Assembly (NCBI RefSeq): GCF_001688725.2
Contig: NZ_CP015401.2
Coordinates: 1,860,001-1,924,000, forward strand
Reading direction: 5' to 3'
DNA length: 64,000 bases
Source: Bacteroides caecimuris
GTDB lineage: Bacteria > Bacteroidota > Bacteroidia > Bacteroidales > Bacteroidaceae
Program-made: the position numbers and the translations under genes
Shown here: positions 923 to 64,000 of the stretch, piece after piece
Layout of the letters: each line of letters begins with the position of its first letter
How positions within the stretch are numbered: position 1 is the stretch's first letter
Notes under the pieces: generated by a model
Seen by the model: only the letters and a program-made list of their open reading frames with translations
Told to the model about the DNA's origin: nothing
Databases searched by the model: none

Positions 923-950
923 CAGTAGAAAAAATGAGAAAGGAATCCCT

Positions 951-10222: not shown

Positions 10223-10233
10223 ACATTGCAGCC

Positions 10234-13502: not shown

Positions 13503-13520
13503 CGACAAAAAGAGAAGAAT

Positions 13521-14288: not shown

Positions 14289-14300
14289 AAAGACAGGGCT

Positions 14301-15434: not shown

Positions 15435-15475
15435 TCCGCAAAAGATAATATAAACCCAATAAAAATCATAACAAC

Positions 15476-15871: not shown

Positions 15872-15874
15872 CCG

Positions 15875-16489
15875 ATGGTCATCAAGAATTTGGAAAACAA
15901 AATAAGACTGGTGGGCATCATCTGTACCGCTTTTCTCGTGGGATGTGTCATCATCAGCTTGTCAAGTATCTGGACAGCCCGGACGATGGTCTCGGATGCG
16001 CAGAAGAAGGTGTATGTGCTGGACGGCAACGTGCCTATCCTCGTGAACCGCACGACAATGGACGAAACGCTTGACATGGAAGCTAAAAGCCATGTGGAAA
16101 TGTTCCACCATTATTTTTTCACGTTACCGCCAGATGACAAATACATCCGCTATACGATGGAAAAAGCGATGTATCTGGTGGATGAGACGGGGTTGGCACA
16201 ATACAACACGCTCAAGGAAAAGGGTTTCTACTCCAACATTTTGGGTACGAGTTCGGTGTTCTCCATCTATTGTGACAGCGTGGCTTTCAACAAGGAGAAG
16301 ATGGAGTTCACTTACTACGGACGGCAACGCATTGAGCGGCGGAGCAACATCCTCATGCGGGAACTGGTCACGGCGGGGCAACTTAAGCGTGTGCCCCGAA
16401 CAGAAAACAACCCGCACGGATTGCTTATCGTGAACTGGCGAACCCTGCTGAACAAGGACATCGAACAGAAAACGAAGATCAACTACTAA
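15875..16489 (+). CDS. traK: TraK conjugation protein (VirB8-like)
   Basis: This is a 204-residue bitopic protein. One N-terminal membrane helix (about 12-32) is followed by a periplasmic domain of about 165 residues with SHVEMFHHYFFTLPPDDKYI and ending in VNWRTLLNKDIEQKTK. A single TM anchor plus an NTF2-like periplasmic domain after TraJ is the TraK pattern, equivalent to VirB8. It would nucleate the inner-membrane complex together with TraM and TraN. Only 12 nt separate it from the next gene. Confidence 0.88.
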   Translation: MVIKNLENKIRLVGIICTAFLVGCVIISLSSIWTARTMVSDAQKKVYVLDGNVPILVNRTTMDETLDMEAKSHVEMFHHYFFTLPPDDKYIRYTMEKAMYLVDETGLAQYNTLKEKGFYSNILGTSSVFSIYCDSVAFNKEKMEFTYYGRQRIERRSNILMRELVTAGQLKRVPRTENNPHGLLIVNWRTLLNKDIEQKTKINY

Positions 16490-16501
16490 ACAACGGAGTT
16501 T

Positions 16502-16882
16502 ATGAATATCAAGGGATTCAGGCGGATGCTCTTCGGTGAAAAGATGCCGGACAAGAACGATCCGAAATACAAAGACCGTTACGAGCGGGAGGTGTCCGCC
16601 GGACGAAAGTTCGCCCAAGCGACACGCATTGACAAGGCTGCCGCCAAGGTGCAGGGATTCGCCAACGCACACCGGATACTTTTTCTGGTCATCGTCTTTG
16701 GTTTCGCTATCGGAGGGTTCACTTGGAACATCTATCGCATTACAATGGCATACCGCAACAGCCGGCCGACACGCACGGCGACGGAAATGCAGGATTCGGT
16801 GCTACGGGAAAGACACAAGAGGCTGCAAGGGGGTGAAATAAGGGAAAATCGGAACGAGAACAAGAAATATGAACCGCAATAA
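16502..16882 (+). CDS. TraL-position small membrane protein
   Basis: This is a 126-residue protein with a basic, charged N-terminal half, one membrane helix (about 62-82) and a basic, Arg/Glu-rich tail. Size and place between TraK and TraM match TraL of CTn-type elements, but the sequence is not distinctive enough for a firm name. It would sit in the inner membrane as a small T4SS accessory subunit. Its last 14 nt overlap the longer possible frame of the downstream methyltransferase. Confidence 0.65.
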   Translation: MNIKGFRRMLFGEKMPDKNDPKYKDRYEREVSAGRKFAQATRIDKAAAKVQGFANAHRILFLVIVFGFAIGGFTWNIYRITMAYRNSRPTRTATEMQDSVLRERHKRLQGGEIRENRNENKKYEPQ

Positions 16883-16892
16883 AGGAGTGCTT

Positions 16893-17375
16893 ATGAATAC
16901 ACGATTTGAAAAATCAGTCCGCTCGTCGGACGAATGGTACACCCCGAAGGAGGTGTTGAAAGCGTTAGGCAGGTTCGACCTTGACCCTTGCGCCCCTATC
17001 CGTCCGTTGTGGCCGACCGCCGAAGTCATGTATGACCGGAACATGGACGGATTGTCCCTGAAATGGGAAGGGCGTGTATGGCTCAATCCTCCGTACTCGC
17101 GTCCCCTTATCGAACAGTTTGTCCGAAAGCTGGCGGAACACGGCAACGGCATCGCGCTGTTGTTCAACCGTTGCGATTCCAAAATGTTTCAGGACGTCAT
17201 TTTCGAGAAAGCGACGGGCATGAAATTCCTGCGCCACCGCATCCGGTTTTACCGCCCGGACGGAACACGCGGCGATTCTCCCGGTTGCGGCAGCATCCTG
17301 ATCGCATTCGGAGTGGAAAACGCAGAAGTGCTGAAAAACTGCAGCATTGAAGGCAAGTATGTACAACTCAATTAA
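16893..17375 (+). CDS. Phage-type DNA N6-adenine methyltransferase (Dam-like, PF05869 type)
   Basis: This is a 160-residue protein of the short phage N6-adenine methyltransferase family. It has SSDEWYTPKEVLKAL at the N-terminus, DLDPCAP (SAM-binding) and the catalytic motif VWLNPPYSRPL. I start at the ATG at 16893 because it has a good AAAGGAG Shine-Dalgarno 5 nt upstream, while 16869 lies inside the previous gene. It is embedded between the TraL-position gene and traM, so it is expressed with the transfer apparatus. The likely role is methylating element DNA before or after transfer so the recipient does not restrict it. No restriction endonuclease is seen beside it. Confidence 0.85.
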   Translation: MNTRFEKSVRSSDEWYTPKEVLKALGRFDLDPCAPIRPLWPTAEVMYDRNMDGLSLKWEGRVWLNPPYSRPLIEQFVRKLAEHGNGIALLFNRCDSKMFQDVIFEKATGMKFLRHRIRFYRPDGTRGDSPGCGSILIAFGVENAEVLKNCSIEGKYVQLN

Positions 17376-17382
17376 AAGATGT

Positions 17383-18534
17383 ATGATGAAGATATTTGAT
17401 AAAATCAATTTCAGGGAGCCGAAGTATATGCTTCCGGCTGTCCTGTATATCCCGCTTCTGGTTGCATCGTACTTCATCTTCGACCTGTTTCATACCGAAA
17501 CGGCGGAGATTCCGGACAAGACGCTGCAGACAACGGAGTTTTTGAACCCCGATTTGCCGGATGCCCGGCTTAAAGGCGGTGACGGCATAGGCAGCAAGTA
17601 CGAGAACATGGCCAAATCATGGGGTAAGATACAGGATTACTCCGCAGTGGATAACATAGAACGAGATGAACCCGATGACAACAAGGAAGAATATGAATCG
17701 CAATACACGGTGGACGACATCGCCTTGCTCGATGAGCAACAGCAGGAAAAGGCTGCGGCAGCGCAAATTGCCGATGCCAAGACACGCGAGCAAGAAGCTC
17801 TCGCGGAACTGGAGAAAGCCCTTGCCGAAGCAAGGTTGAGAGGACGCAATGAGGTATTACCGGCGACCGATACGGACAGTACCGCATCGGCGCAACCCCC
17901 GACGGCAACCATAGAGGTCAAGGGAAAAATAGAGGAAGAGAGCCGTTCGGTAAAAGCCCCGTCAGAGAACGAACCGCCCAGCGAAGTGGTACGCAAGGTA
18001 AAGACGGCTTCGGATTACTTCAATACGCTTGCGGTCAATGCCCGTGAACCGAAACTGATAAAGGCCATTATCGACGAGGACATCAAGGCGGTGGACGGCT
18101 CGCGTGTGCGGTTGCGTCTGCTCGACGACGTGGAGATCAACGAGTGCGTGGTCAAACGAGGGTCGTATCTGTATGCCACCATGAGCGGCTTCTCGTCGGG
18201 GCGTGTGAAGGGGAACATCACCAGCATTCTCATCGAGGACGAACTGGTGAAGGTCAGCCTGTCCCTTTACGACACGGACGGCATGGAAGGGCTTTATGTA
18301 CCGAACAGCCAGTTCCGGGAAACGAGCAAGGATGTGGCAAGCGGTGCGGTGTCGGGGAATCTGAACATGAATACCGGCAGTTACGGCAACAGTCTCTCGC
18401 AATGGGGAATGCAAGCCGCTACGAATGCCTACCAGAAAACGAGCAATGCCATCGGCAAAGCTATCAAAAAAAATAAGGTAAAGCTGAAATACGGCACTTT
18501 CGTCTATCTGGTGAACGGACGTGAGAAACAGTAA
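17383..18534 (+). CDS. traM: TraM conjugation protein (VirB10-like)
   Basis: From the ATG at 17383 this is a 383-residue protein. It has one N-terminal membrane helix (about 14-34), then a long Glu/Ala/Gln-rich coiled or extended linker (about 90-215), then a folded periplasmic domain. That domain contains VRLRLLDDVEINECVVKRG and the conserved FSSGRVKGNITSI and DGMEGLYVPNS. This layout of anchor, spacer and beta-rich C-terminal domain is that of TraM, the VirB10 equivalent bridging inner and outer membrane. An upstream Met at 17347 lies within the methyltransferase gene and would break the usual start-anchor spacing. Confidence 0.9.
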   Translation: MMKIFDKINFREPKYMLPAVLYIPLLVASYFIFDLFHTETAEIPDKTLQTTEFLNPDLPDARLKGGDGIGSKYENMAKSWGKIQDYSAVDNIERDEPDDNKEEYESQYTVDDIALLDEQQQEKAAAAQIADAKTREQEALAELEKALAEARLRGRNEVLPATDTDSTASAQPPTATIEVKGKIEEESRSVKAPSENEPPSEVVRKVKTASDYFNTLAVNAREPKLIKAIIDEDIKAVDGSRVRLRLLDDVEINECVVKRGSYLYATMSGFSSGRVKGNITSILIEDELVKVSLSLYDTDGMEGLYVPNSQFRETSKDVASGAVSGNLNMNTGSYGNSLSQWGMQAATNAYQKTSNAIGKAIKKNKVKLKYGTFVYLVNGREKQ

Positions 18535-18545
18535 AAACGGAAGCC

Positions 18546-19331
18546 ATGATAGAGATTGACAACATATATAATATGGACTGTATCGAGGGTATGAAGCTCA
18601 TGGCGAACGGCAGTGTCGATGCCGTGATAGCGGATTTGCCTTACGGCGTGTTGAACCGTAGCAACAAGGCGGCACACTGGGACAGGCAGATACCGCTCGA
18701 AGCGTTGTGGAAACAGTACCGCAGGATCACCAAGCCGGGAAGCCCCGTTATCCTCTTTGCGCAGGGCATTTTCTCGGCGCAACTCATGCTCTCGCAACCC
18801 CGGATGTGGCGGTATAACCTCGTGTGGCGGAAAGACCGGGTAACGGGTCACCTGAATGCCAACCGGATGCCGCTACGCCAGCATGAGGACATCATCGTGT
18901 TCTACGACCGTCAGCCGGTATATCATCCTCAAATGACGCCGTGTCCACCGGAACGGAGGAATCATGGACGCCGCAAGACGGACGGTTTCACGAACCGCTG
19001 TTACGGTGAAATGAAACTGGCTCCGGTGCGTGTTGCCGAAGACAAGTACCCGACCTCTGTCATTTCCATACCCAAGGAACACAAGACAGGAGCATTCTAT
19101 CATCCGACACAGAAGCCGGTAGCCTTGATAGAGTACCTGATACGTACCTATACCAACGAGGGCGATGTGGTGCTGGACAACTGCATCGGTTCGGGTACGA
19201 CCGCCATTGCCGCCATCCGCACGGGGCGGCATTACATCGGATTCGAGATTGAACCGACGTATTGCGAAATTGTCGGACGACGGATTCGGGAGGAACTGGA
19301 ACGTGGTCATGGATTAAAGAAAGCGAAATAA
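18546..19331 (+). CDS. DNA methyltransferase (beta-class, DLPYG motif)
   Basis: This is a 261-residue site-specific DNA methyltransferase. The catalytic motif IADLPYGVLN is near residue 32, and the SAM-binding LDNCIGSGTTAIAA near residue 205. The order catalytic-then-SAM marks the beta class (N6-adenine or N4-cytosine). HPTQKPVALIEYLIRTY is the usual motif before the SAM loop. It follows traM by 11 nt and precedes traN. It is the second methyltransferase embedded in this tra operon, with no partner nuclease in sight, consistent with anti-restriction use. The target site cannot be read from sequence. Confidence 0.9.
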   Translation: MIEIDNIYNMDCIEGMKLMANGSVDAVIADLPYGVLNRSNKAAHWDRQIPLEALWKQYRRITKPGSPVILFAQGIFSAQLMLSQPRMWRYNLVWRKDRVTGHLNANRMPLRQHEDIIVFYDRQPVYHPQMTPCPPERRNHGRRKTDGFTNRCYGEMKLAPVRVAEDKYPTSVISIPKEHKTGAFYHPTQKPVALIEYLIRTYTNEGDVVLDNCIGSGTTAIAAIRTGRHYIGFEIEPTYCEIVGRRIREELERGHGLKKAK

Positions 19332-19368
19332 GGGAAATAAAGAAATAAACAATATCAACAGAAACGAT

Positions 19369-20220
19369 ATGAACAAGAAAATAATTGTAACTGCATTTCT
19401 TCTGGCGGCAGGACTTTTTGCCACACGGAACGCACAGGCTCAGCGTACATACGAAGAGATGGAACGGCTGACTGTCAATGAACAGGTAACGACCGTCATC
19501 ACAGCCACGGAACCGGTCCGCTTCGTGGATATTTCCACAGACAAGGTGGCGGGCGACCAACCCATTGAGAACATCATCCGGTTGAAGCCCAAAGAGACGG
19601 GACACGAGGACGGTGAAGTGCTGGCCATCGTCACCATCGTAACGGAACGCTATCGCACGCAGTATGCACTCATCTACACCACGCGGATAAGCGAGGCGGT
19701 GGCAGACAAGGAAATTCAGCTACAGGAACGGGATGCCTACAACAATCCTACGGTCTCGATGTCCACAGCCGACATGGTGCGTTTTGCAAGACGGGTGTGG
19801 AACTCGCCCGCGAAAATCCGCAACGTGGCGACCAAGGCGCACCGAATGGTAATGCGCCTGAACAATATTTACTCGGTGGGCGACTATTTCTTCATCGACT
19901 TTTCCATCGAGAACAAAACGAACATCCGTTTCGACATCGACGAGATACGGGTGAAACTGTCGGACAAGAAACTTTCGAAGGCAACCAACGCGCAGACCAT
20001 CGAGCTGACGCCTGCCCTGGTATTGGAACACGGCAAGACGTTCAAGCACGGCTACCGGAACGTGATTGTCGTGAAAAAGATGACCTTTCCGAACGACAAG
20101 CTGCTGACCATCGAAATGACGGAACAACAAATCAGCGGGCGCAATATCAGCCTGAACATTGACTACGAGGATGTGCTGTCGGCCGATTCATTTAACACCG
20201 CTTTATTGGAGGAGGAATGA
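19369..20220 (+). CDS. traN: TraN conjugation protein (DUF4138, VirB9-like)
   Basis: This is a 283-residue periplasmic protein with a signal peptide ending near residue 25 (ATRNAQAQ) and a beta-rich mature part. It shows TVITATEPVRFVDIS near the N-terminus. A C-terminal domain contains YFIDFSIENKTNIRFDIDEIRVKLSDKK, a signature of the Bacteroidota TraN/DUF4138 family. By analogy to VirB9/TrbG it forms part of the outer-membrane core complex with TraM and TraO. The following traO start overlaps its stop (ATGA). Confidence 0.9.
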   Translation: MNKKIIVTAFLLAAGLFATRNAQAQRTYEEMERLTVNEQVTTVITATEPVRFVDISTDKVAGDQPIENIIRLKPKETGHEDGEVLAIVTIVTERYRTQYALIYTTRISEAVADKEIQLQERDAYNNPTVSMSTADMVRFARRVWNSPAKIRNVATKAHRMVMRLNNIYSVGDYFFIDFSIENKTNIRFDIDEIRVKLSDKKLSKATNAQTIELTPALVLEHGKTFKHGYRNVIVVKKMTFPNDKLLTIEMTEQQISGRNISLNIDYEDVLSADSFNTALLEEE

Positions 20221-20729
20221 CGATGAAAAAGACGATAATACTGATGCTTGCCTGCATGTGCGTCTTCATGAATGCAAGTGCGCAGCGTAACAGCGGCCGC
20301 CTCTCGCTTGGAGTGGGATTGCTGTATGAGAACGGCATGGACGTAACGCTTGCTTACGAACATGAAATGAACTACCGCCATGCGTGGGAGTTTTTCGCCA
20401 ACGGCTATCTGAAATGGACGGAATGTAAATCTTGCGGTCATATTTGTCCGGAATCCTTCTGGCGCAACTATCGCACTTACGGTTTCGGTGTGGCGTACAA
20501 ACCTTGTGTGGTGCGTGGACGCAACCATTACGGCAACTTGCGTATCGGAGCTTCGGCAGGGAGCGACACGAACAAGTTTCTTGCCGGAATCCATGTGGGT
20601 TACGAGCACAATTATGTGCTGCGGTCGGGATGCACACTGTTCTGGCAGGTAAAGAGTGACATGATGATAAAAGGGGCGGATTTGCTGCGGACAGGTATCG
20701 TGCTGGGGGTGAAACTGCCGATAAAATAA
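20217..20729 (+). CDS. traO: TraO conjugation protein (outer-membrane beta-barrel-like)
   Basis: This is a 170-residue protein with a signal peptide (cleavage near 23, NASAQR). The mature part is beta-rich with alternating aromatic/Gly strands (RLSLGVGLLYENGMDVTLAY, GNLRIGASAGSDTNKFLAGI) ending LGVKLPIK, the look of a small outer-membrane barrel. TraO is always next to TraN in these operons. A GGAGGA Shine-Dalgarno precedes the ATG, unusually strong for this genome, and the start overlaps the traN stop by 4 nt. A Met two codons later is an alternative start. Confidence 0.88.
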   Translation: MTMKKTIILMLACMCVFMNASAQRNSGRLSLGVGLLYENGMDVTLAYEHEMNYRHAWEFFANGYLKWTECKSCGHICPESFWRNYRTYGFGVAYKPCVVRGRNHYGNLRIGASAGSDTNKFLAGIHVGYEHNYVLRSGCTLFWQVKSDMMIKGADLLRTGIVLGVKLPIK

Positions 20730-20754
20730 AGGAAAAACAAAAAACGAAAATAAC

Positions 20755-21411
20755 ATGATACGAAAGATTCAATGGTTTGCAATGGCAGTGACGGCGGTAT
20801 TGTGCGCTGCCTGTGACGCCCATATCGACGTACCTGATACGGCGGTACGTCCGGGACATATTCTCTGCGAGGACGGTACGGCTTTATCCTACGTACAGTA
20901 TGAACAGTCGGGAAAACGGGCAATAGCGGTTGTCTTCGATACCGAACACCGTGAAGGTACGGAAGGGAACGGCTATGCGGTTTACCTGTGGGACATTGCT
21001 CCGGCAGCTTTTGCCGACAGCCTCGGTGTCGCACAAGGGACGTCGGCCGACATCGAGGCTTTGGACGGGAACATGAACACCTTTGCGCTGTACGACACAC
21101 GGGAGACGGCTTCGCCTATGGCGGAAGCGGTCTTTGACCTGTGGCGGTACGGACAGAGTGCCTATATCCCGTCGGTGGCACAGATGCGGCTGCTGTATGC
21201 CGTCCGGGAAACCGTCAATCCTGTCATCGAACGGTGTGGCGGCCATCCGCTGCCGTTGGATGAAAACGACTGCTGGTACTGGACATCGACGGAGGTAACC
21301 GGACAGGAAACGGCGAAAGCGTGGCTTTACTCGACAGGAAGCGGTGCGATGCAGGAGACCCCGAAGACACAGGCGCACAAGGTGCGGCCGATTATCACAC
21401 TGAACAGGTAG
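20755..21411 (+). CDS. Conjugation-operon lipoprotein with DUF1566-like domain
   Basis: This is a 218-residue protein with a lipoprotein signal (lipobox VLCAAC, Cys20). The mature part ends with a DUF1566-like segment: PSVAQMRLLYAVRETVN, then WYWTSTEVTGQETAKAWLYS, then HKVRPIITLNR. Such domains are common in Bacteroidota surface lipoproteins. It follows TraO and precedes the coupling protein, so it is probably an outer-membrane-linked accessory of the T4SS, for example in mating-pair contact or entry exclusion. That role is inferred from position only. Confidence 0.75.
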   Translation: MIRKIQWFAMAVTAVLCAACDAHIDVPDTAVRPGHILCEDGTALSYVQYEQSGKRAIAVVFDTEHREGTEGNGYAVYLWDIAPAAFADSLGVAQGTSADIEALDGNMNTFALYDTRETASPMAEAVFDLWRYGQSAYIPSVAQMRLLYAVRETVNPVIERCGGHPLPLDENDCWYWTSTEVTGQETAKAWLYSTGSGAMQETPKTQAHKVRPIITLNR

Positions 21412-21439
21412 GAACGAAAAGAGGGAAAGGACAAAGACA

Positions 21440-23626
21440 ATGGAAGAAAGCAAGGAACTACAAGGATTTTACAAAATATTCCGTGCGGTCATCTATATCT
21501 CCGTGCTGATGGAGTTCTTCGAGTATGCCATAGACCTTGCCATGCTCGACCACTGGGGCGGCATATTGATTGATATACACGGGCGCATCAAGCGATGGAT
21601 GATCTATAACGACGGCAACCTCGTGTATAGTAAGATAGCGACCTTCCTACTCATCTGCATCACTTGTATCGGCACACGCAACAAAAAACACTTGGAGTTT
21701 GACGCACGCAGGCAAGTGTTATATCCACTTATCTGCGGATTGTTCTTGATTGTGTTCTCCGTGTGGCTGTACCATCATACGATGGAAACGAGGCTCTACA
21801 CCCTGCCGCTGAACATCATCTTCTATATGGCGGCTACGCTGGTCGGTGTGATATTGGTGCATATCGCATTGGATAACATCTCGAAGTTCATCAAGGAGGG
21901 ACTGGGTAAAGACCGGTTTAACTTCGAGAATGAAAGTTTCGAGCAGAGCGAAGAGAAGGATGAGAACCAGTATAGCGTGAATATACCGATGCGGTACTAT
22001 TACAAAGGTAAATTTCGCAAGGGATGGGTGTCGATAAGCAACTGTTTCAGAGGAACATGGGTGGTTGGAACTCCAGGTAGCGGTAAGACGTTCAGTATCA
22101 TAGAACCGTTCATCCGCCAACATAGTGCCAAGGGCTTCGCGATGGTGGTCTATGACTACAAATTTCCGACACTTGCCACTAAACTTTACTATCATTACAA
22201 GAAAAACCAGAAGCTCGGCAAAGTGCCAAAAGGATGCAAGTTCAACATCATCAACTTCGTGGATGTGGAGTACAGCAAACGGGTGAACCCCATTCAGGCA
22301 AAGTACATCAATAATCTTGCGGCGGCGAGCGAAACGGCGGAAACCCTGTTGGAATCCCTGCAGAAAGGCAAGAAAGAGGGAGGCGGAGGCAGTGACCAGT
22401 TCTTTCAGACTTCTGCCGTGAACTTTCTTGCCGCCTGTATCTACTTTTTCGTGAACTACGAGCGGGAACCCTACGATGCAAACGGAAAGAAACTGTATGC
22501 GGAGAAACGGCAAGATCCGCAGACGAAGTTCTGGAAGCCGACGGGTGTCGTTCGTGACCGTGAGGGTGGCAGCATCGTGGAACCTGCCTATTGGCTTGGA
22601 AAATACTCGGATATGCCGCATATCCTTTCATTTCTCAATGAGAGCTACCAGACTATTTTTGAGGTACTTGAGACGGACAACGAGGTCGCGCCGTTGCTCG
22701 GCCCGTTCCAAACGGCCTTCAAAAACAAGGCGATGGAACAGTTGGAAGGTATGATAGGTACGCTGCGTGTCTATACCAGCCGTTTGGCTACAAAGGAATC
22801 TTACTGGATATTCCACAAGGATGGGGACGATTTCGACCTGAAAGTTAGTGACCCCAAGTCACCCAGTTATCTGCTGATAGCCAACGATCCGGAAATGGAA
22901 AGTATCATCGGAGCGTTGAACGCTCTGATATTGAACCGTCTCGTTACCCGTGTGAACACCGGGCAGGGGAAAAATATTCCGGTCAGCATCATCGTGGATG
23001 AGCTACCGACACTGTATTTCCACAAGATAGACCGACTGATAGGTACGGCGAGAAGCAACAAGGTAAGCGTAACGCTGGGTTTTCAGGAGTTGCCGCAGTT
23101 GGAGGCTGACTACGGAAAAGTGGGAATGCAAAAAATCATCACGACAGTGGGCAACGTGGTAAGCGGTTCAGCTCGCGCAAAAGAGACACTGGAATGGTTG
23201 TCGAATGACATTTTCGGCAAGGTGGTACAGGTCAAAAAGGGCGTGACGATCGACCGGGACAAAACGAGTATCAATCTCAATGAGAACATGGACAGTCTTG
23301 TACCCGCCTCGAAAATTTCGGATATGGCGACGGGATGGATTTGCGGACAGACGGCACGTGATTTCGTGAAGACGAAAACCGGTACGGGAGGCTCGATGAA
23401 CATTCAGGAGTCGGAAGAGTTCAAGACTACAAAGTTCTTCTGCAAGACGGATTTCGATATGAGGGAGATAAAAGCGGAGGAAGCGGCCTATGTACCGCTA
23501 CCGAAGTTCTACACTTTCAAGTCGAGGGAGGAACGGGAACGCATCTTGTATAAAAATTTCATACAAGTCGGACAGGATGTAAAAGACATGATAGCGGATG
23601 TACTGAACAAGCGTGGGGCGAAATAA
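21440..23626 (+). CDS. mobC: Type IV coupling protein (VirD4/TraG family, MobC-type)
   Basis: This is a 728-residue coupling protein that would hand the DNA-relaxase complex to the T4SS. N-terminal membrane helices lie near residues 15-35, 65-80, 92-110 and 115-140. The ATPase domain has Walker A GTPGSGKT (210-217), the NPIQAKYINN segment and a Walker B-like SIIVDELPTLY near 515. GFQELPQLEADYG and a TypeIV-like C-terminus follow. Length and motifs are those of MobC-type coupling proteins of Bacteroides conjugative transposons. It is the last gene of the tra operon and is followed by a strong terminator. Confidence 0.93.
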   Translation: MEESKELQGFYKIFRAVIYISVLMEFFEYAIDLAMLDHWGGILIDIHGRIKRWMIYNDGNLVYSKIATFLLICITCIGTRNKKHLEFDARRQVLYPLICGLFLIVFSVWLYHHTMETRLYTLPLNIIFYMAATLVGVILVHIALDNISKFIKEGLGKDRFNFENESFEQSEEKDENQYSVNIPMRYYYKGKFRKGWVSISNCFRGTWVVGTPGSGKTFSIIEPFIRQHSAKGFAMVVYDYKFPTLATKLYYHYKKNQKLGKVPKGCKFNIINFVDVEYSKRVNPIQAKYINNLAAASETAETLLESLQKGKKEGGGGSDQFFQTSAVNFLAACIYFFVNYEREPYDANGKKLYAEKRQDPQTKFWKPTGVVRDREGGSIVEPAYWLGKYSDMPHILSFLNESYQTIFEVLETDNEVAPLLGPFQTAFKNKAMEQLEGMIGTLRVYTSRLATKESYWIFHKDGDDFDLKVSDPKSPSYLLIANDPEMESIIGALNALILNRLVTRVNTGQGKNIPVSIIVDELPTLYFHKIDRLIGTARSNKVSVTLGFQELPQLEADYGKVGMQKIITTVGNVVSGSARAKETLEWLSNDIFGKVVQVKKGVTIDRDKTSINLNENMDSLVPASKISDMATGWICGQTARDFVKTKTGTGGSMNIQESEEFKTTKFFCKTDFDMREIKAEEAAYVPLPKFYTFKSREERERILYKNFIQVGQDVKDMIADVLNKRGAK

Positions 23627-55452: not shown

Positions 55453-55654
55453 CATATAAAATCTCTCCGAAGAGAATTGCCGACGTGAGATGAAAAGAGA
55501 CCATAATTGAGAAACGCTATTATTCATAAGGGGAAAAGACTATTCGTGGTTGTTATAAATGCTTGATTAACATGAAAATACAATTCGCGCCATAAAATAA
55601 TCCTTTCTTGAAATAAAAATCACAGAAAAAGAAACAAGATTAAAAAATAACCAT

Positions 55655-55662
55655 TAACTTTG
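55655..55662 (+). promoter_or_regulatory. -7 box of the cobalamin-riboswitch transcript
   Basis: TAACTTTG is an exact TAnnTTTG box, about 10 nt before the start of the riboswitch aptamer. The expected -33 TTTG is not present, only A-rich sequence. Confidence 0.55.
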
Positions 55663-55671
55663 CACCAGTCA

Positions 55672-55860
55672 AGTTTCCAATCGAAGCGTCGAACGGAATT
55701 AAAAGGGAATCCCGGTGAAAATCCGGAGCTGTACTCGCAGCTGTAAGTCCTATTAAAGTTTATCGCACTCTTTGCCACTGGTGAAAGCTGGGAAGGCGCG
55801 ATAAGCGGGATGAGCCAGAAGACCTGCTTGATGAGATAGATTTAGTGACCACGGGATAAT
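55672..55860 (+). promoter_or_regulatory. Cobalamin (adenosylcobalamin-type) riboswitch
   Basis: The conserved aptamer parts are present in order: GGGAATCCCGGTGAAAATCC (55705-55724), the CTGTACTCGCAGCTGTAAG loop, and the B12 box AGCCAGAAGACCTGC (55813-55827). Intracellular B12 binding would lower expression of the downstream surface-uptake genes. It lies about 140 nt before the first gene; the rest of the leader (to 56002) probably contains the expression platform, but I cannot pick out a clear terminator. Confidence 0.9.
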
Positions 55861-56002: not shown

Positions 56003-56971
56003 ATGAAAAAGAATTTTAGATTCTTGGCAATGGCTGTTGTAGCAATGGCCGCCGCAGTGTTCACGGGATGTTCATCCGACGATGACTTCCTTGCTCCGTA
56101 TGAGGAGAGTGCGATTCAAACCCGCGCGATAAGTTCTACCAATGCGCTTATCGATTTTGATAACGTACCTTCCAGCGTAATGGCTTCTGACCAGTATGGA
56201 AACAATCTCTATTCTGCCACGGCCAACGGCAAGCAGGTAACGACCGGCTACATCACTCAAATCGGGCAAACCGGTACGTACATTCAGTTCCCGATTAACT
56301 ATTTGGAACAAGAATGGGTAAGCGGACAGCCTTGGGAATATGAATTTTGGAATGGTGGTTTTGCCATCTCTAATTTCCATAATCTGACACAGGGGGATTA
56401 TCAAAACCAATGTAGCGTGTACTGGCCCAACGGCGGTCATAGCGGTAAAAATTTTGCTGTAGCTTTCGGTTATAGCGATTCATACAATGATTCACAAGCA
56501 ACCTATGACAAATGTGCGAAGATTTACCTGACCGATGCAACCGGCTACAGAGTCGTTACCACAAACACTCCTGTCAAGGGTACACCGAAATATGGTAAAT
56601 TCAACAGCGTATGGGTTTGTAATACGACTTATACCTACTTAGTCATGAAGGATGGCAACTCGTTTACACAAGGCTCTTTGTCGGCACAAAAAGGATGGTT
56701 TAAGGTGGTATTTGTTGCGTTGGATGCGACGGGTAAACCTACAGGTAAGGAAGTAGAATACTATTTGGCAAACTTCGATTCCAGTAAAGATGCAGAATCA
56801 GGTTTGACCAATAAAATCCGTACCGGATGGAATCAAGTGGATTTAAGCGGTTTAGGTGACAGCGTATGTACTGTAGCTATCAATTTCGAAGGAAGCGATT
56901 CAAGCGCATACGGATTGAACACTCCTGCTTACGTTGCTATAGACGATATTGATGTAACCGTAAACGAATAA
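56003..56971 (+). CDS. Surface lipoprotein with DUF4465 domain (btu locus)
   Basis: This is a 322-residue lipoprotein. The lipobox is FTGC (Cys23) followed by SSDDD, an acidic export signal for surface lipoproteins of Bacteroidota. The DUF4465 domain covers most of the protein: LIDFDNVPSS, WNGGFAISNF, WVCNTTYTYLVMKDGNSF, and the closing GWNQVDLSGLG and TPAYVAIDDIDV. It is the first gene under the cobalamin riboswitch, and such genes occur in Bacteroides B12 loci. A role in capturing corrinoids at the cell surface, possibly BtuH-like, is an inference from position. Confidence 0.82.
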   Translation: MKKNFRFLAMAVVAMAAAVFTGCSSDDDFLAPYEESAIQTRAISSTNALIDFDNVPSSVMASDQYGNNLYSATANGKQVTTGYITQIGQTGTYIQFPINYLEQEWVSGQPWEYEFWNGGFAISNFHNLTQGDYQNQCSVYWPNGGHSGKNFAVAFGYSDSYNDSQATYDKCAKIYLTDATGYRVVTTNTPVKGTPKYGKFNSVWVCNTTYTYLVMKDGNSFTQGSLSAQKGWFKVVFVALDATGKPTGKEVEYYLANFDSSKDAESGLTNKIRTGWNQVDLSGLGDSVCTVAINFEGSDSSAYGLNTPAYVAIDDIDVTVNE

Positions 56972-57098
56972 CATGAATTTGGGGCAAATGCTTTTTAACG
57001 GCAAGTGCAAAGTATTTGCCCCTTTTTATTATATCCCAATGGAGATTGTAATCAAATACTTTCTTCAAGGGAATTTCAGCATTAAAATTATAAATATA

Positions 57099-58874
57099 AT
57101 GAAGAAGTATTTGCTTTTATTCTCCTTGACGATATTTCTATTTGCATGCAACAAAGACGAAGAAATATCGCAGGACGTGATATTGCCTCCTGTCATTGAG
57201 TTGGATAGCGAGGACGGAATCTACGTTGTAAAGATAGGAAAAGAGGTCGTTATTGAGCCGACCTATCAGAATGTCGATTACGCCGTTTATTCATGGAAAT
57301 GCAACGGTCGTATCATTTCCGACGAGCCTCAATTGAAATACATTTTCAACGAATGCGGTTCGTATTACGTTACCCTGCGTGTGGATACGAGGGATGCCAG
57401 CACAGAGGAAGAAATTCGTGTGGATGTCAATGAATTGGCTCCGCCCGTTATTTCATTGGTAACCCCCTCTATAGGGCTTAAAGTTGTCGCAGGACGCGAG
57501 TATATCCTTACACCCGACATTCAAAATGCAGAAGGAGCTACTTATTTGTGGACTCTTAACGGAAACGAAGTCGGAACGGAAAATACTTATACATTCAAGC
57601 AAGATGAGTTGGGAACTTATGAACTGACCTTAACCGTAACAAATGAAGACGGACAATCAAAGAAGACAGTTTCTATTGAGGTTGTCGATAAACTTCCGAT
57701 TGAAATCGTAGTTCCGTCATCTTTATATTTTACCGAGAATAATACCAAATACGTAGAATTAGGACGTACTTTGTTTGTCCGCCCCTTTGTATCAATAAGT
57801 GCCGAGCCTTCTTATCAATGGAGTTTGGACGGGCAACCGATTGAGGGAGCCAATTCTTTGGTTTACGGTTTCAAACCCGCTAAAACCGGAGAACACACGC
57901 TTACCTTTACTGTGAAATACGACAATCAAGATACAAAAGCAGTGCTCACCCGTAATATTTCGGTCTCCGGTGTCGATGAAGTCAGTGTCAATATTCCGGT
58001 GAAATGTTGTGAAGCGGCCGGAAAAAGACCTTTTGCTGCCGGAAATTCCATTTACAGCAATAAAGTATATGAATTTGTTCCGGCTCCGGGACAATTTGTA
58101 AACGAAACGAATACAGCAGGTTTCAATGGGGAAAGCACGCACGAAGCAGCCTGTGCTTACGCACAAAAACGTCTTGATAATGAACAATATGTTTCTCTTG
58201 GAGGTTGGGGAGGATATATCGTAGTAGGATTCGACCACAGTATCGAAAACAAAGGCGGTTATGATTTTTCCATCAAAGGAAATGCCTTTGATTCGTCAAA
58301 TGAACCGGGCATTGTATGGGTAATGCAAGATGTCAATGGAGACGGCTTGCCCAACGATGAATGGTATGAACTGAAGGGTTCTGAATATGGAAAACCCGAA
58401 ACCATTCAGGACTATGCCGTAACTTATTTCCGTCCCGGTCCCAACATGGATACTCAATGGCAGGACAACAAGGGAAATAAAGGAGCGATTGACCGTCTCG
58501 GCAACTATCACCCGCAAGAGTTTTATTATCCTTTGTGGATTGAAGCGGATTCCTATACGTTATACGGCACATGCCTGAAAGCACGTACCGAACAAAGCCC
58601 GTCGACAGGCATGTGGTCCAATAATCCGTTCGGATGGGGATATGCCGATAATATTGGTGATGATATGCCCAATAAAGACAATCCTAACGCGGGAGCACTT
58701 GGAAACTATTTTAAGATTTCCGATGCAGTCAATATCGACGGTACACCTGCAAACCTTTCCCATATCGACTTTATCAAGGTGCAGACCGGAGTCAATGTAA
58801 AAGCCGGATGGTTAGGGGAAAATTCCACGGAAGTTTTCAAGTTCTGTGATGAAAACAACAATAACGACAAATAA
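57099..58874 (+). CDS. Surface lipoprotein with PKD-like domains (btu locus)
   Basis: From the ATG at 57099 this is a 591-residue lipoprotein; the lipobox is LFAC (near residue 19), then NKDEEIS. Three PKD/Ig-like repeats are visible (YAVYSWKCNG, ATYLWTLNGNEVG and PSYQWSLDGQPIEG, each followed by a GTYELTLTV-type strand). The C-terminal half (about 330-590) is a separate domain with GGYDFSIKGNAFDSSNEPGI and LPNDEWYELKGSEYG. I start here, not at 56973, because only this start gives a lipoprotein signal. It lies between the DUF4465 and the repeat lipoprotein genes. Surface binding of B12 or partner proteins is inferred. Confidence 0.78.
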   Translation: MKKYLLLFSLTIFLFACNKDEEISQDVILPPVIELDSEDGIYVVKIGKEVVIEPTYQNVDYAVYSWKCNGRIISDEPQLKYIFNECGSYYVTLRVDTRDASTEEEIRVDVNELAPPVISLVTPSIGLKVVAGREYILTPDIQNAEGATYLWTLNGNEVGTENTYTFKQDELGTYELTLTVTNEDGQSKKTVSIEVVDKLPIEIVVPSSLYFTENNTKYVELGRTLFVRPFVSISAEPSYQWSLDGQPIEGANSLVYGFKPAKTGEHTLTFTVKYDNQDTKAVLTRNISVSGVDEVSVNIPVKCCEAAGKRPFAAGNSIYSNKVYEFVPAPGQFVNETNTAGFNGESTHEAACAYAQKRLDNEQYVSLGGWGGYIVVGFDHSIENKGGYDFSIKGNAFDSSNEPGIVWVMQDVNGDGLPNDEWYELKGSEYGKPETIQDYAVTYFRPGPNMDTQWQDNKGNKGAIDRLGNYHPQEFYYPLWIEADSYTLYGTCLKARTEQSPSTGMWSNNPFGWGYADNIGDDMPNKDNPNAGALGNYFKISDAVNIDGTPANLSHIDFIKVQTGVNVKAGWLGENSTEVFKFCDENNNNDK

Positions 58875-58882
58875 AATTCATT

Positions 58883-60937
58883 ATGAACAAAATATATCAT
58901 TTCATCCTATTCTGTTTCGCTACGCTCTGCCTTGCTGCATGTAGTGATGACGACCCTGAAGTAAGCGGAATAGACGGCAAGGATCACTTCATCTCCGAGT
59001 TTGCTCTAACTGTAGATGGCATTACCTATCAAGCCATGATAGTCGGGGACAAGATTACAGTTGAGATACCTTATAATACCAGTCTGAAAGGGGCTACCGT
59101 AGAGTATGCCCTTTGCGAGGGAGCCTCTATTAACCCGAATCCATCAACCATAGAGGATTGGGAAAATGAATGGAAATTCGTAGTCACCTCCAGAATGCAG
59201 GAGAGCAAAGTATATTCCTATACTTATCAATATGCAGACATCGAACAGAGCGGCAGCGTGGTACTTGCCACGCAATCCGAGGTGGATAATTTTGCCAAGA
59301 CAGGAATAAACAAAATCGAAGGCAGCCTGACCATCGGAACGGCAGACGGAGAAGAAATCACCAATCTGGACGGACTTGCCAACCTGAAACAAATCAGTAA
59401 CTCTCTTGTTATCAATCCGTCTTACAAAGGAGCGGATTTGACGGGGTTGGATAATCTGGAACAACTCGGAAGTTTCAAATTAGGATCGACAACTTCTACC
59501 AGTAAAAACATAACGCTCAAAACGGTTAATCTGCCCTCTTTGCTTGGAGTGACCGGCGATTTTGTCGTTAACAGTTCTGTCATTGAAAAAATATCCATAC
59601 CCAAAGTCGAGTTCATTGGTGAGGATATGTATATAACCTCCGATGCTTTGCTTGATTTGGATGCAAATGCCGTTGAATCTGTCGGAGCTTCCTTAATTGT
59701 CAAAGGTTCGGTAGCACAAAAAGAATCAGCGACAACCGAAGCCATTGTTTTCTCAGCGCTCAAACGGGTCGGGAATGAACTTACAGTCCAATATTTTCCC
59801 AAACTGCAAGGAATTTATCTACCGGCATTGGAAAGTGTGGCCGGTACTGCCTCATTCTCCGATATGTCCTCCATCGGAAGTCTTGCAATGACCGAATTAC
59901 ATTCGGTTGGAGGACTGACTATAAAAAATTGCAAAGAGATTTCCATTGTTGAACTTCCCGGTCTTATTTCCTGCGGAGAGACCAGTGTGGATGCGAATAA
60001 AGTCAATAAGTTTAATATATCTTCTTTGAAAGATGTACTCGGTGATATGACTTTAAGTAATCTGCTCATAGAAGAACTGGATTTGTCCCAGATAAATTTT
60101 AACGGGAATACACTTACCCTACAATGTAAGCAACTAAATAAAATCGTAGGTTCGGAAACATTTAACGGTAGCCTTCTTCTGCTTCCTAAAAATTGTCGAT
60201 TGACCGAATTGACTCTTGAGGGAATCTCAAATATAGAGGGCGACTTCCAATGCAAAGATTATTTTTATGTAAAAGAATTTGTTATGCCATTTATTCGTGT
60301 GGCAGGAAATATGACTATTGCATTGAATTCGGGAAGTGTTGATACGGGTGCGGAAATTGAATTTCCTAAATTGCAGGAAATAGGAGGTACTTTAACATTA
60401 GAAAATAATACGAATGCAAATAATATTACCTTCCCGTCATTGAAAAAAATTCTCGGTTCATGTTCGGTTACGACTGATTTTCTTAAGAATGATATTGAGT
60501 TTACCAGTTTGGAAAGCATTGGGACGGATGGAGCAAATACACAAATTGAGTTTAAGATTGATGTTACTAATATTTTATGTCCCAAATTAAAAACGATAAA
60601 CGGACTGTTTAATATTGTAACATCTACTGTTGTATGGGGTATGACGGCTGATGAGGTGTCTTATCCTACCGTTGAATCAATATCCGAAAATCTTTCAATA
60701 ACATGCCCGTATTCTGATTTTGGTTCTAATGGTATTTTGTCCATTGATTTTTCAGGTCTCAAATCAGTAAAAGGGATTAGTATAAGCGGGCAAGGAGATG
60801 TTAGCGATTTCAGTTCTTTCAAATACCTGTTTGAAAACAATGTTCTAACAGGAGAATCTCAATGGTCTGTCAGAGAATGTGCTTATAACCCCACATACCA
60901 AGATATGAAAGACGGGAAGTACAAGCCTGCCGAATAG
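58883..60937 (+). CDS. Leucine-rich / L-domain-like surface lipoprotein
   Basis: This is a 684-residue lipoprotein with lipobox LAAC (near residue 20) followed by SDDDPE. After a short beta domain (about 30-135) come many solenoid-type repeats of about 22-24 residues with an LxxIxGsLxI rhythm (ITNLDGLANLKQISNSLVI, GVTGDFVVNSSVIEKISIP, EIGGTLTLENNTNANNITF), like receptor L-domains or BspA-type LRRs. The 3' half is notably AT-rich compared with the btuG gene that follows. It is the third lipoprotein under the riboswitch. A binding or adhesion role is likely; a link to corrinoids is by location only. Confidence 0.78.
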   Translation: MNKIYHFILFCFATLCLAACSDDDPEVSGIDGKDHFISEFALTVDGITYQAMIVGDKITVEIPYNTSLKGATVEYALCEGASINPNPSTIEDWENEWKFVVTSRMQESKVYSYTYQYADIEQSGSVVLATQSEVDNFAKTGINKIEGSLTIGTADGEEITNLDGLANLKQISNSLVINPSYKGADLTGLDNLEQLGSFKLGSTTSTSKNITLKTVNLPSLLGVTGDFVVNSSVIEKISIPKVEFIGEDMYITSDALLDLDANAVESVGASLIVKGSVAQKESATTEAIVFSALKRVGNELTVQYFPKLQGIYLPALESVAGTASFSDMSSIGSLAMTELHSVGGLTIKNCKEISIVELPGLISCGETSVDANKVNKFNISSLKDVLGDMTLSNLLIEELDLSQINFNGNTLTLQCKQLNKIVGSETFNGSLLLLPKNCRLTELTLEGISNIEGDFQCKDYFYVKEFVMPFIRVAGNMTIALNSGSVDTGAEIEFPKLQEIGGTLTLENNTNANNITFPSLKKILGSCSVTTDFLKNDIEFTSLESIGTDGANTQIEFKIDVTNILCPKLKTINGLFNIVTSTVVWGMTADEVSYPTVESISENLSITCPYSDFGSNGILSIDFSGLKSVKGISISGQGDVSDFSSFKYLFENNVLTGESQWSVRECAYNPTYQDMKDGKYKPAE

Positions 60938-60962
60938 ATAACCAAACAATAAGTTTTCTGCC

Positions 60963-61004
60963 AATCCTCGGTATGCTTACCGTAAGGTAAGACTACCGGG
61001 GATT
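60963..61004. repeat. REP-like two-step hairpin upstream of btuG
   Basis: AATCCTCGGTA (60963) pairs with TACCGGGGATT (ending 61004), one G-U step, and the inner part GCTTACC pairs with GGTAAG around GTAA. No T-run follows, so it is not a standard terminator. Imperfect palindromes of this size with a bulge are what REP elements look like, and a REP-transposase-like gene lies 1.1 kb downstream. Confidence 0.5.
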
Positions 61005-61022
61005 AACTATAAAAATAACGGT

Positions 61023-62102
61023 ATGACCTATCACCAATTGAAATATCTGCTATGGAGCGTAGTTGTCGGAGTGACACTATCCTTGACATCCTGCATGAAG
61101 TGGGACTACGGCGATGCCGTAGAAGACTTCAATGCCACGGGAGCCGGACTGTTCATCACCAACGAGGGCAACTTCCAGTACGGCAATGCTACCTTGTCCT
61201 ATTACGACCCTGCGACCAAACAGGTACAGAACGAAATCTTCTTCCGTGCCAACGGCATGAAACTCGGCGACGTGGCGCAGTCGATGACCATCTACGACAA
61301 CAAGGGCTGGGTCGTGGTGAACAACTCCCACGTGATTTTCGCCATCGACCTGAACACCTTCAAGGAGGTGGGACGCATCGAGAACCTGACCTCGCCGCGC
61401 TACATTCATTTCCTAAGCGACGAAAAAGCCTACGTCACCCAACTGTGGGACAACCGCATCTTCATCATCAACCCGAAGAAATATGAAATTACCGGCTACA
61501 TTCAAGTGCCGGACATGACGATGGAAAGCGGCTCGACGGAGCAGATGGTGCAGTACGGCAAATACGTCTATTGCAACTGCTGGTCGTATCAGAACCGCAT
61601 CATCAAAATCGACACCGAAACCGACCAAGTGGTCGATGAACTGAAGGTCGGCATACAACCGACATCGCTGGTCATGGACAAGTACAACAAGATGTGGACG
61701 GTGACCGACGGCGGTTACGAAGGCAGCCCCTACGGTTACGAAGCCCCGTCGCTCTACCGCATCGACGCCGAGACATTCACGGTGGAGAAGCAGTTCAAGT
61801 TCAAGTTGGGCGACTGGCCCTCGGAGGTACAGCTCAATGGCGACAGGGACAAACTCTACTGGATCAACAAGGCCATTTGGAGCATGGACGTGACAGCCAG
61901 CCATGTGCCGGTGCGTCCGTTCCTCGAATACAGCGGCACGATTTATTACGGACTGACGGTAAACCCCGCCAACGGGGAAGTATACATCGCCGATGCCATC
62001 GACTACCAGCAGCAGGGCATGATTTACCGCTACTCGCCCGAAGGGAAATTGATAGATGAATTTTATGTCGGGATTATCCCCGGTGCATTTTGTTGGAAAT
62101 GA
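61023..62102 (+). CDS. btuG: BtuG-like B12-binding surface lipoprotein (beta-propeller)
   Basis: This is a 359-residue lipoprotein with lipobox LTSC (near residue 24) and a mature part formed by repeated propeller blades. Examples are GLFITNEGNFQYGNATLSYYD, YVTQLWDNRIFIINPKKYE, YVYCNCWSYQNRIIKIDTETDQVV and GEVYIADAIDYQQQG (YncE/DUF5074-like). In Bacteroides, BtuG proteins of this build cap the BtuB channel and bind B12 very tightly. It lies two reading frames upstream of a BtuB-like receptor and under a cobalamin riboswitch. GC-rich codon use contrasts with the preceding AT-rich lipoproteins. Its stop codon overlaps the next start (ATGA at 62099-62102). Confidence 0.88.
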   Translation: MTYHQLKYLLWSVVVGVTLSLTSCMKWDYGDAVEDFNATGAGLFITNEGNFQYGNATLSYYDPATKQVQNEIFFRANGMKLGDVAQSMTIYDNKGWVVVNNSHVIFAIDLNTFKEVGRIENLTSPRYIHFLSDEKAYVTQLWDNRIFIINPKKYEITGYIQVPDMTMESGSTEQMVQYGKYVYCNCWSYQNRIIKIDTETDQVVDELKVGIQPTSLVMDKYNKMWTVTDGGYEGSPYGYEAPSLYRIDAETFTVEKQFKFKLGDWPSEVQLNGDRDKLYWINKAIWSMDVTASHVPVRPFLEYSGTIYYGLTVNPANGEVYIADAIDYQQQGMIYRYSPEGKLIDEFYVGIIPGAFCWK

Positions 62103-62599
62103 AGAATAAATTGCGGCATATATACCATATTATTTTCATCACGAAAAGACAGGAGATGACGATTCCAATGACAACCAAAGGAATGATTCTCGATCAGATG
62201 GTACAAATTTTCACAAGGAAAGGCTGTCATGTCTATGCCTGCAATGCTTTTCTCAATCATGTTCATATACTTGTAGAGATACCATCTCCCACGGACTTCG
62301 CAAAGATTATCAATAAAGTAAAAAGTTCTACAGGCGTTGTCTATCGAAAATATCCGGAATATGCGGATTTTTCAGGATGGGCAGCCGGATTTGATTCGTT
62401 TAGCGTGTCATTCAATGATCTGAATCGGGTAAAACACCACATTGAGAAACAAGAGACGGTTCATCAGGAACTTTCATTCGAGGACGAATACGACCAACTG
62501 CTTGAAGAAAACGGATTCAATGCCTATCAAGATTTTATGCGGGCATCATTCTCTGCATATGCTGCGGTAAATAACCATATTAAAAACAAAAGGAAATGA
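62099..62599 (+). CDS. RAYT / IS200-like HUH protein lacking the catalytic tyrosine
   Basis: This is a 166-residue protein of the Y1 transposase (TnpA_REP) family. The fold signatures HIIFITKRQE and the HUH motif NHVHILVEIP (HVH) are intact, as is the helix FNDLNRVKHHIEKQE. In related proteins the last motif normally reads YIxNQ with the nucleophilic tyrosine; here that place is His (codon CAC, 62438-62440). The start overlaps the btuG stop, and the stop overlaps the btuB start, both as ATGA, so all three are translationally coupled. It has AT-rich codon use between two GC-rich neighbours. It looks like a captured and possibly domesticated HUH protein. Confidence 0.82.
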   Translation: MKNKLRHIYHIIFITKRQEMTIPMTTKGMILDQMVQIFTRKGCHVYACNAFLNHVHILVEIPSPTDFAKIINKVKSSTGVVYRKYPEYADFSGWAAGFDSFSVSFNDLNRVKHHIEKQETVHQELSFEDEYDQLLEENGFNAYQDFMRASFSAYAAVNNHIKNKRK

Positions 62600-64000
62600 C
62601 ATATACAAAATATTTACTTTTCTCAATATTGGTTGTCTGTCCATCCGTGCTGTCTGCGCAGGGAATCACCCGGCGTATTCACCAGATAGACGAGGTGACC
62701 GTATGGGGCAAACGGCCGATGAAGGAAATCGGCGTGCAGAAGACGAAGTTCGATTCACTCGCACTGAAAGAAAATATCGCCCTCTCGATGGCGGACATCC
62801 TGACGTTCAACTCGTCCGTGTTTGTCAAGAGCTACGGCCGCGCCACGCTCTCGACCGTCGCCTTCCGAGGCACGTCGCCCAGCCATACGCAGGTGACGTG
62901 GAACGGGATGCGCATCAACAACCCCATGCTCGGCATGACCGACTTCTCCACCATTCCGTCCTACTTCATCGACCAGGCATCGCTGCTGCACGGTACTTCA
63001 TCGGTGAACGAAACGGGCGGTGGACTGGGCGGTCTGGTCAAACTCGGCACGGCTCCTGAAGTCGCTGAAGGGTTCAACGCCCAGTACGTGCAGGGCATCG
63101 GCTCGTTCAAGACCTTCGATGAGTTCGCCCGCTTCACCTACGGAAGTGAGCGGTGGCACGTCTCCACCCGTGCGGTCTATTCTTCCTCGCCTAACGATTA
63201 CAAGTACACCAACCACGACAAAAAGATAAACATCTACGACGAGGATAAGAACATCGTCGGACAGTATCACCCGAAAGAGCGCAACCGCTCCGGGGCGTTC
63301 AAGGACCTGCATTTGCTTCAGGAAGTGTATTACAATACCGGGAAAGGCGACCGTTTCGGGCTGAACGCCTGGTATATCAACTCCAACCGGGAACTTCCGA
63401 TGTTGACGACCGACTATGGAGATGCAACCGACTTCGAGAACCGCCAGCGAGAACAGACGTTCCGCAGCGTCTTGTCCTGGGATCACATGAAAAGCAACTG
63501 GAAACTCGGCGTGAAAGGCGGTTACATACACACATGGATGGCCTACGACTACAAGCGTGAGGTCGCACCTGACAACTGGGCGTCGATGACCCGCTCCCGC
63601 AGCAAGGTAAACACGTTTTACGGTCAGGCGGAGGGAGAGTATTCTTTGGATAAAAAATGGTTTTTCACCGCCAATGTATCGGCACACCAGCATTTGGTAC
63701 GGAGCGAGGACAAGAACATCATCTTGCAGGACGGTGGCAAGGCCATCGTGGGCTATGACAAGGGGCGCGTGGAACTCTCCGGCTCCGTATCCGCCAAGTG
63801 GCAGCCGATAGACCGCTTGGGTATGTCGGTGGTACTGCGGGAAGAGATGTATGGTTCCGATTGGATTCCACTCATTCCGGCTTTCTTCATTGACGGTATC
63901 ATTTCCCCGAAAGGAAATGTGATGCTGAAAGCATCCATATCGCGTAACTACCGTTTCCCAACTCTGAACGACCTATACTTTTTGCCGGGAGGTAATCCCA
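62596..64000 (+). CDS. btuB: BtuB-like TonB-dependent receptor, 3' end outside window
   Basis: The frame is open from the ATG at 62596 to the window end (468 codons). A signal peptide (cleavage near residue 22, LSAQG) is followed by a TonB-box-like IHQIDEVTVWG segment. The plug domain comes next (KEIGVQKTKFDSLALKEN, SSVFVKSYGRATLSTVAFRG, GTSPSHTQVTWNGMRINNP, GGGLGGLVKLGTA), then the beginning of the barrel. Plug sequence and gene context (cobalamin riboswitch, BtuG) point to corrinoid import across the outer membrane with TonB. It is GC-rich like btuG. No separate promoter is seen; it is read with btuG. Confidence 0.9.
   Translation, partial: MTYTKYLLFSILVVCPSVLSAQGITRRIHQIDEVTVWGKRPMKEIGVQKTKFDSLALKENIALSMADILTFNSSVFVKSYGRATLSTVAFRGTSPSHTQVTWNGMRINNPMLGMTDFSTIPSYFIDQASLLHGTSSVNETGGGLGGLVKLGTAPEVAEGFNAQYVQGIGSFKTFDEFARFTYGSERWHVSTRAVYSSSPNDYKYTNHDKKINIYDEDKNIVGQYHPKERNRSGAFKDLHLLQEVYYNTGKGDRFGLNAWYINSNRELPMLTTDYGDATDFENRQREQTFRSVLSWDHMKSNWKLGVKGGYIHTWMAYDYKREVAPDNWASMTRSRSKVNTFYGQAEGEYSLDKKWFFTANVSAHQHLVRSEDKNIILQDGGKAIVGYDKGRVELSGSVSAKWQPIDRLGMSVVLREEMYGSDWIPLIPAFFIDGIISPKGNVMLKASISRNYRFPTLNDLYFLPGGNP

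Follow-up and report, generated by a model that had tools for sequence, protein, structure and literature searches.

A tyrosine-less TnpA-Y1 family protein encoded between btuG and btuB of mobile vitamin B12 operons

Introduction

What does a transposase-like gene do inside a vitamin B12 uptake operon? The question is raised by a gene, here called gene X, that lies between btuG and btuB in a stretch of 64,000 nucleotides (nt) from Bacteroides caecimuris (contig NZ_CP015401.2, positions 1,860,001 to 1,924,000; the window). An earlier note on this DNA had taken its product for a HUH protein of the RAYT type in which His replaces the catalytic Tyr, kept as a non-cleaving binding factor. A Tyr-less HUH protein, under selection and fixed between btuG and btuB, was recovered here; RAYT membership, a conserved His and binding of the hairpin before btuG were not.

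Family of gene X

Gene X, its key codons and its junctions were placed in the window as follows.

62099..62599, + strand: gene X, Tyr-less TnpA-Y1 (IS200-like, probably subclass 1.2-derived) protein of 166 amino acids (P0001)
62258..62266, + strand: HVH (residues 54-56), with His54 and His56, the two HUH metal ligands (77/77 aligned rows)
62438..62440, + strand: codon of His114 (CAC), in the catalytic-Tyr column (alignment to 2f4f and 77 rows)
62450..62452, + strand: codon of Gln118, counterpart of Q131, the third metal ligand of IS608 TnpA (77/77 rows; role from PMC6006769, excerpt)
62099..62102, + strand: ATGA overlap of btuG (stop at 62102) with the start of X
62596..62599, + strand: ATGA overlap of X with btuB (start at 62596)

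Gene X matched the Pfam family Y1_Tnp (PF01797, E=4e-15), and its sequence matches in the PDB were IS200-type transposases. Two NCBIfam models scored below their cut-offs: transpos_IS200 (IS200/IS605 transposase) at 42.4 bits (cut-off 55) and REP_Tyr_transpos at 24.4 bits (cut-off 80). An alternative TTG start lies 9 nt 5' of the ATG; the alignment of relatives begins at the ATG. No export signal was seen by eye, so the protein is predicted to be cytoplasmic. By its Y1_Tnp domain and the ligands H54, H56 and Q118 (a predicted metal site), X is a member of the TnpA-Y1 (Y1_Tnp) fold family.

Class was assigned from the register behind the Tyr column. Class 1 proteins carry Y---Q and the RAYT classes Y---NP, with the third metal ligand four positions past the Tyr (Q131 in IS608; PMC6006769, excerpt). 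The register in X is that of Y---Q without NP, with Q118 at Y+4 in 77/77 rows; X therefore falls in class 1 and not, as first proposed, among the RAYTs (TnpAREP, class 2). Within class 1, subclass 1.2 is described as Y---Q--HH proteins of low copy number in Bacteroidetes and Cyanobacteria, without insertion sequence (IS) properties (PMC6006769, excerpt). The comparison used the published signature from the same excerpt (DH[IV]H, WQ, Y---Q--HH, C-terminal domain), not a subclass model: Q118 and H122 match and the tail is present, while the Tyr, the first H, the D and WQ do not match (NHVH and WA in X). Within class 1, derivation from subclass 1.2 is probable.

Loss of the catalytic tyrosine

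The alignment of 77 rows comprised 16 grouped rows (14 of the X clade plus the sister rows P0039 and P0045) and 61 other homologues. H54, H56, W94, Q118 and H122 were present in every row (77/77). The Tyr column was Y in 61/61 other rows and non-Tyr in 15/16 grouped rows (H 8, L 3, F 2, R 1, D 1, Y 1), which supports a clade-wide loss of the Tyr with the metal-ligand residues kept. The intact HVH and the His at the Tyr position, both read from the window by the earlier note, were thus confirmed for X. Conservation of that His was rejected, given the other residues found in the column; column 114 ranked 17th of 142 in variability (15 grouped rows, P0023 left out).

Other positions also set the group apart. 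Column 121, where the HH of the relatives begins, was H in 59/61 other rows and in 0/16 grouped rows, and the complete Q--HH of subclass 1.2 was found in 59/61 Tyr-bearing rows. The residue before the HUH motif was N in 16/16 grouped rows (D 43, N 16, E 2 in the others). On a tree of 53 rows the X clade had a support of 99/98, adjoined by P0039, P0045 and the long-branched, Tyr-bearing P0043, and the Tyr state changed at least 3 times.

An active IS200-type transposase was rejected on the lost Tyr, the NCBIfam score under cut-off, the single copy of X in its own genome, and the way in which the gene fills the space between btuG and btuB. X could still be an enzyme, in which H54, H56 and Q118 activate water or use another residue, giving a metal-dependent nuclease of single-stranded DNA or RNA, or a phosphodiesterase, with no covalent intermediate. 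All three ligands are kept in 16/16 grouped rows while the Tyr column is free to vary, pure binding would not obviously need metal ligands, and Y131 is invariant in 16/16 grouped rows (38/61 others). Against this, Y131 sits 17 residues away from the catalytic register and is also frequent in relatives that have the Tyr, Y131 as a moved nucleophile is not supported, and no Tyr-less Y1 enzyme appeared in the literature surveyed by titles and abstract starts. An enzyme is considered unlikely.

Two versions on two mobile elements

X was read in two versions. The version A protein, that of the window, is identical in Bacteroides ndongoniae, Phocaeicola massiliensis and Bacteroides sp. GM023, with 0 nucleotide differences in X among the copies. 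Version B is found as a second copy in genome G149 and also in G245, G309, G750 and record MT835494.1, with the gene order of version A. Identity between A and B is 88.7% for btuG, 63.8% for X and 90.2% for btuB (first 468 residues). The ATGA overlaps described by the earlier note are present on both sides of X in the window; in version B, btuG and X overlap by 1 nt (TGATG, if the ATG is the start) and X and btuB by 4 nt. In both versions X takes up the ~493 nt from the btuG stop to the btuB start, leaving no space for IS ends. The placement is more than chance, since the two versions share this junction although X is only 64% identical between them.

The carrier of version A is an integrative and conjugative element (ICE), with genes in the window for an integrase, TraG, TraM, DUF4138, a coupling protein, ParA and ParB. 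A Mob_Pre gene lies downstream of the B12 operon, and X adjoins neither transfer nor integration genes. The ICE and operon features are listed below.

933..2096, + strand: tyrosine integrase of the ICE
7514..23626, + strand: conjugation module (TraG, TraM, DUF4138, coupling protein)
55654..55845, + strand: cobalamin riboswitch RF00174, 5' of the operon (100.6 bits)
56003..56971, + strand: DUF4465 (BtuH-like) gene, the operon's first
56973..58874, + strand: PKD-domain gene (longest open reading frame; true start may be later)
58883..60937, + strand: Receptor-L/leucine-rich domain gene
60963..61004, + strand: intercistronic hairpin before btuG, not X-specific
61023..62102, + strand: btuG, surface B12-binding lipoprotein with DUF5074 (domain match)
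62596..63999, + strand: btuB, TonB-dependent receptor, extending past the window end to about 64674

The operon runs riboswitch, DUF4465, PKD, leucine-rich, btuG, X, btuB, followed beyond the window by btuF-, btuC- and btuD-like genes. DUF4465 is B12-binding according to an abstract, and the BtuB2-BtuG2 complex has been described (PMC10404256, excerpt). Two further, distant btuG/btuB loci in the same genome lack X. Two open reading frames looked transposase-like by eye: an IS1182-type frame inside the ICE (window 27158-28849, - strand), and an extra frame of ~371 amino acids between the DUF4465 and PKD genes in the ICE copy of G149 (L077:3545-4660).

Version B is neighboured by genes for tape measure, baseplate hub and tail proteins. 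The MT835494.1 record, a faecal scaffold and the only one on which head genes were sought, encodes elsewhere a portal, a head maturation protease, a tail sheath, a DNA polymerase and an integrase. With phage genes around it, version B appears to be carried by a myovirus-like prophage. Its operon is also led by a cobalamin riboswitch, and the complete riboswitch-led operon stands among tail genes in L072, L073-L076, L114 and L115 (MT835494.1 and four assemblies, with shared tail-gene flanks). Genome G149 carries both versions, A on the ICE (L077) and B beside tail genes (L073).

Selection and gene history

Over 165 codons, X of versions A and B differs at 156 nucleotides (40, 31 and 85 at codon positions 1, 2 and 3) and 61 amino acids. 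The ratio (w) of non-synonymous to synonymous divergence (dN to dS) was 0.10 by NG86 (dS 2.3, saturated) or 0.17 by YN00. In neutral simulations run to the same number of nucleotide differences, the means were 94.5 amino-acid changes and 4.7 stop codons, and 0/2000 had 61 changes or fewer. X has a higher dN (0.24) than btuG (0.08) and btuB (0.05) and is still constrained. Purifying selection, not decay, is supported, as is domestication: X is under such selection in a fixed non-transposon setting, though in only two independent contexts. The constraint that the earlier note had expected was therefore found, and the neutral decay that it had set against its own reading was not.

A transposase remnant decaying neutrally after insertion would account for the lost Tyr and for the shortened and broken forms in the database (P0008, a shortened X, has 30 member sequences). 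It is contradicted for the A-B pair by the simulations; the gap that X fills in both versions has no place for IS ends, and full-length family members exist at 57-64% identity (alignment without fragments). We consider it highly improbable.

The history of X may differ from that of its neighbours. In version A, GC content at third codon positions (GC3) is 40% for X, 73-76% for btuG and btuB, and 38-44% for the three upstream operon genes; the version B value for X is 63.5%. Differences at 4-fold sites between A and B were 24/40 in X vs 38-47% in the neighbours (p 0.02-0.16, uncorrected). Both hint, if weakly, at a separate exchange or acquisition of X. In addition, window positions 58000-62024 (leucine-rich gene to btuG) were ~4% divergent from three other ICE copies, up to 14% per 250 nt. 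The tract includes 32 btuG changes, every one synonymous, and stops 75 nt 5' of X, a sign of allelic exchange.

These data bear on the proposal that X serves the mobile element and not B12 uptake, for example by promoting the annealing of single-stranded DNA or the swapping of cassette alleles from one element to another. In its favour are the presence of the cassette on both ICE and prophage, the end of the divergent tract close to X, and the possible separate history. A single breakpoint may be chance, however, the GC3 of the upstream genes is as low as that of X, and X lies away from the transfer and integration genes; a recombination function would be putative. This explanation is rated quite improbable.

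Proposed role and distribution

We tentatively favour, at somewhat less than even confidence, X as a domesticated TnpA that no longer cleaves and has been kept as a cytoplasmic factor that binds nucleic acid and tunes mobile B12 operons. A TnpA-Y1 (IS200-like) protein has lost its nucleophilic Tyr and, very probably, the ability to cut and rejoin DNA; its fold, the two HUH histidines and the Gln ligand are kept. X is encoded together with btuG and btuB behind the cobalamin riboswitch and would stay in the cytoplasm. There it may bind a hairpin or a single strand, the simplest target being part of the mRNA or DNA of the operon itself, and so tune B12 gene expression. Non-cleaving binding of DNA or RNA is plausible.

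Distribution was surveyed at several ranks. Close homologues of X were found in 5/399 family genomes and 2/393 order genomes (own genome included); at >=63% identity X was found in 4/158 genus genomes (P0001 query, E 1e-15). The same query found X in 1/9 genomes of the family of G750, and a profile search found it in 2/61 genomes of the genus of G080. By profile, two other groups gave 0/6 and 0/173 genomes, with no known positive among them to validate the search. In viral_contigs no matched stretch encoded an X relative (five scans). Plasmids gave a single distant match (26% identical), and phages MT835494.1 (63%) and one distant match.

The following results weigh against the favoured role. 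A btuG query was run against 399 family and 384 order genomes; among the matches listed (up to 30 loci each), 27 distinct junctions had btuB directly downstream of btuG, with X present in 7 and absent in 20, the outcome that the earlier note had named as adverse. Locus L087 is without X and its btuG is 90% identical to that of the window. P0025, inside the X clade, has the Tyr; it is the one such row in the group, so that close relatives with Tyr, also named as adverse, are the exception. P0007 (64 member sequences) is an X shortened, apparently by a frameshift, to end at residue 114, the Tyr column; the full-length type A sequences P0002 and P0003 have 676 and 44 members. Within each version the copies hardly differ, and the X loci read therefore amount to only two independent versions. 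No target or partner of X was found in this analysis.

The target that had been proposed, the hairpin at 60963-61004, belongs with these results. The hairpin (~60963-61004) is real by folding, but a homologous hairpin precedes btuG in X-less L087, and hairpins of other sequence do so in X-less L090, L098 and L099; it is thus not X-specific. The version B hairpin (L076) is unrelated in sequence to that of the window, and no second copy of the hairpin stretch was found in the genome, other repeats not being sought. As a target of X it is not supported on these grounds. In L095-L097 and L100 the folded stretch showed no long hairpin of this kind, and in L091-L094 the chosen start lay upstream of the hairpin's place. 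In the window, L087, L090, L098, L099 and L076, loci with and without X, the position of the hairpin is kept and its sequence is not.

X is thus an optional part of a B12 operon sub-lineage. On the btuG tree L087 groups with both X versions (98/98). The best tree has two X gain/loss changes and one change is also compatible; X may have been gained once and then lost, or gained twice.

The same junctions bear on whether X is a passenger, its frame kept open by translational coupling to btuB and its protein idle. The overlaps on both sides, the 20 junctions without X, where btuB starts within ~30 nt of the btuG stop (by eye and by alignment), and the shortened database form are as a passenger would predict. 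Amino-acid constraint on X, however, far exceeds what an open frame requires, and the metal-ligand positions are among the invariant residues. We hold a passenger to be distinctly unlikely.

Comparison with known systems

No paper in the collection searched unites btuG, btuB, Bacteroides and a transposase, and titles and abstract starts held no report of a TnpA-like gene between btuG and btuB or of a prophage-borne btuG operon. The excerpts of PMC10404256 and PMC8941943 mention no X-like gene. The phylogeny of PMC6006769 retained, according to its excerpt, only sequences with both motifs; because both were required, Tyr-less sequences lie outside it. HUH proteins are defined by tyrosine-metal chemistry, and a selected Tyr-less clade offers a natural test of the metal site without cleavage. 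The X clade suggests that TnpA, like TnpB, is convertible to a non-cleaving factor. In the gut Bacteroidales, for which competition over B12 is important, a complete riboswitch-led B12 uptake operon appears as cargo of both ICE and prophage.

TnpA-Y1 subclass 1.2 resembles X in the Y---Q--xH register, short core, C-terminal tail, low copy number, lack of IS ends and occurrence in Bacteroidetes. X differs in lacking the catalytic Tyr and the first H of HH (0/16), in having N for D before the HUH motif (16/16), and in its place inside a B12 operon. Unlike the IS200/IS605 transposases IS608 TnpA and ISDra2 TnpA, X has no nucleophile and no element ends, and is single-copy. RAYT/TnpAREP proteins have Y---NP and REP repeats; X lacks Y---NP, and its proposed hairpin is single-copy (other repeats not sought).

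The TldR proteins, nuclease-dead TnpB repressors, provide a precedent (PMC13418256, excerpt). Like X they are IS200/IS605-related, have lost catalysis and stand beside a non-transposon gene, with one clade on phage. TldR derives from TnpB and is RNA-guided, whereas X comes from TnpA and has no known guide or target. X may be for TnpA what TldR is for TnpB: a Y1 transposase that no longer cuts and has become a regulator, binding nucleic acid specifically by sequence or structure and keeping its metal site for that purpose, of a nutrient operon that moves on conjugative elements as well as temperate phages. Such a role is possible, if on balance doubtful. The conjugative transposon BoCTn carries a B12 transport locus (Frye et al. 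2021, as cited in PMC11005914, excerpt). The ICE of the window is like such elements in bearing a B12 locus, and has X between btuG and btuB.
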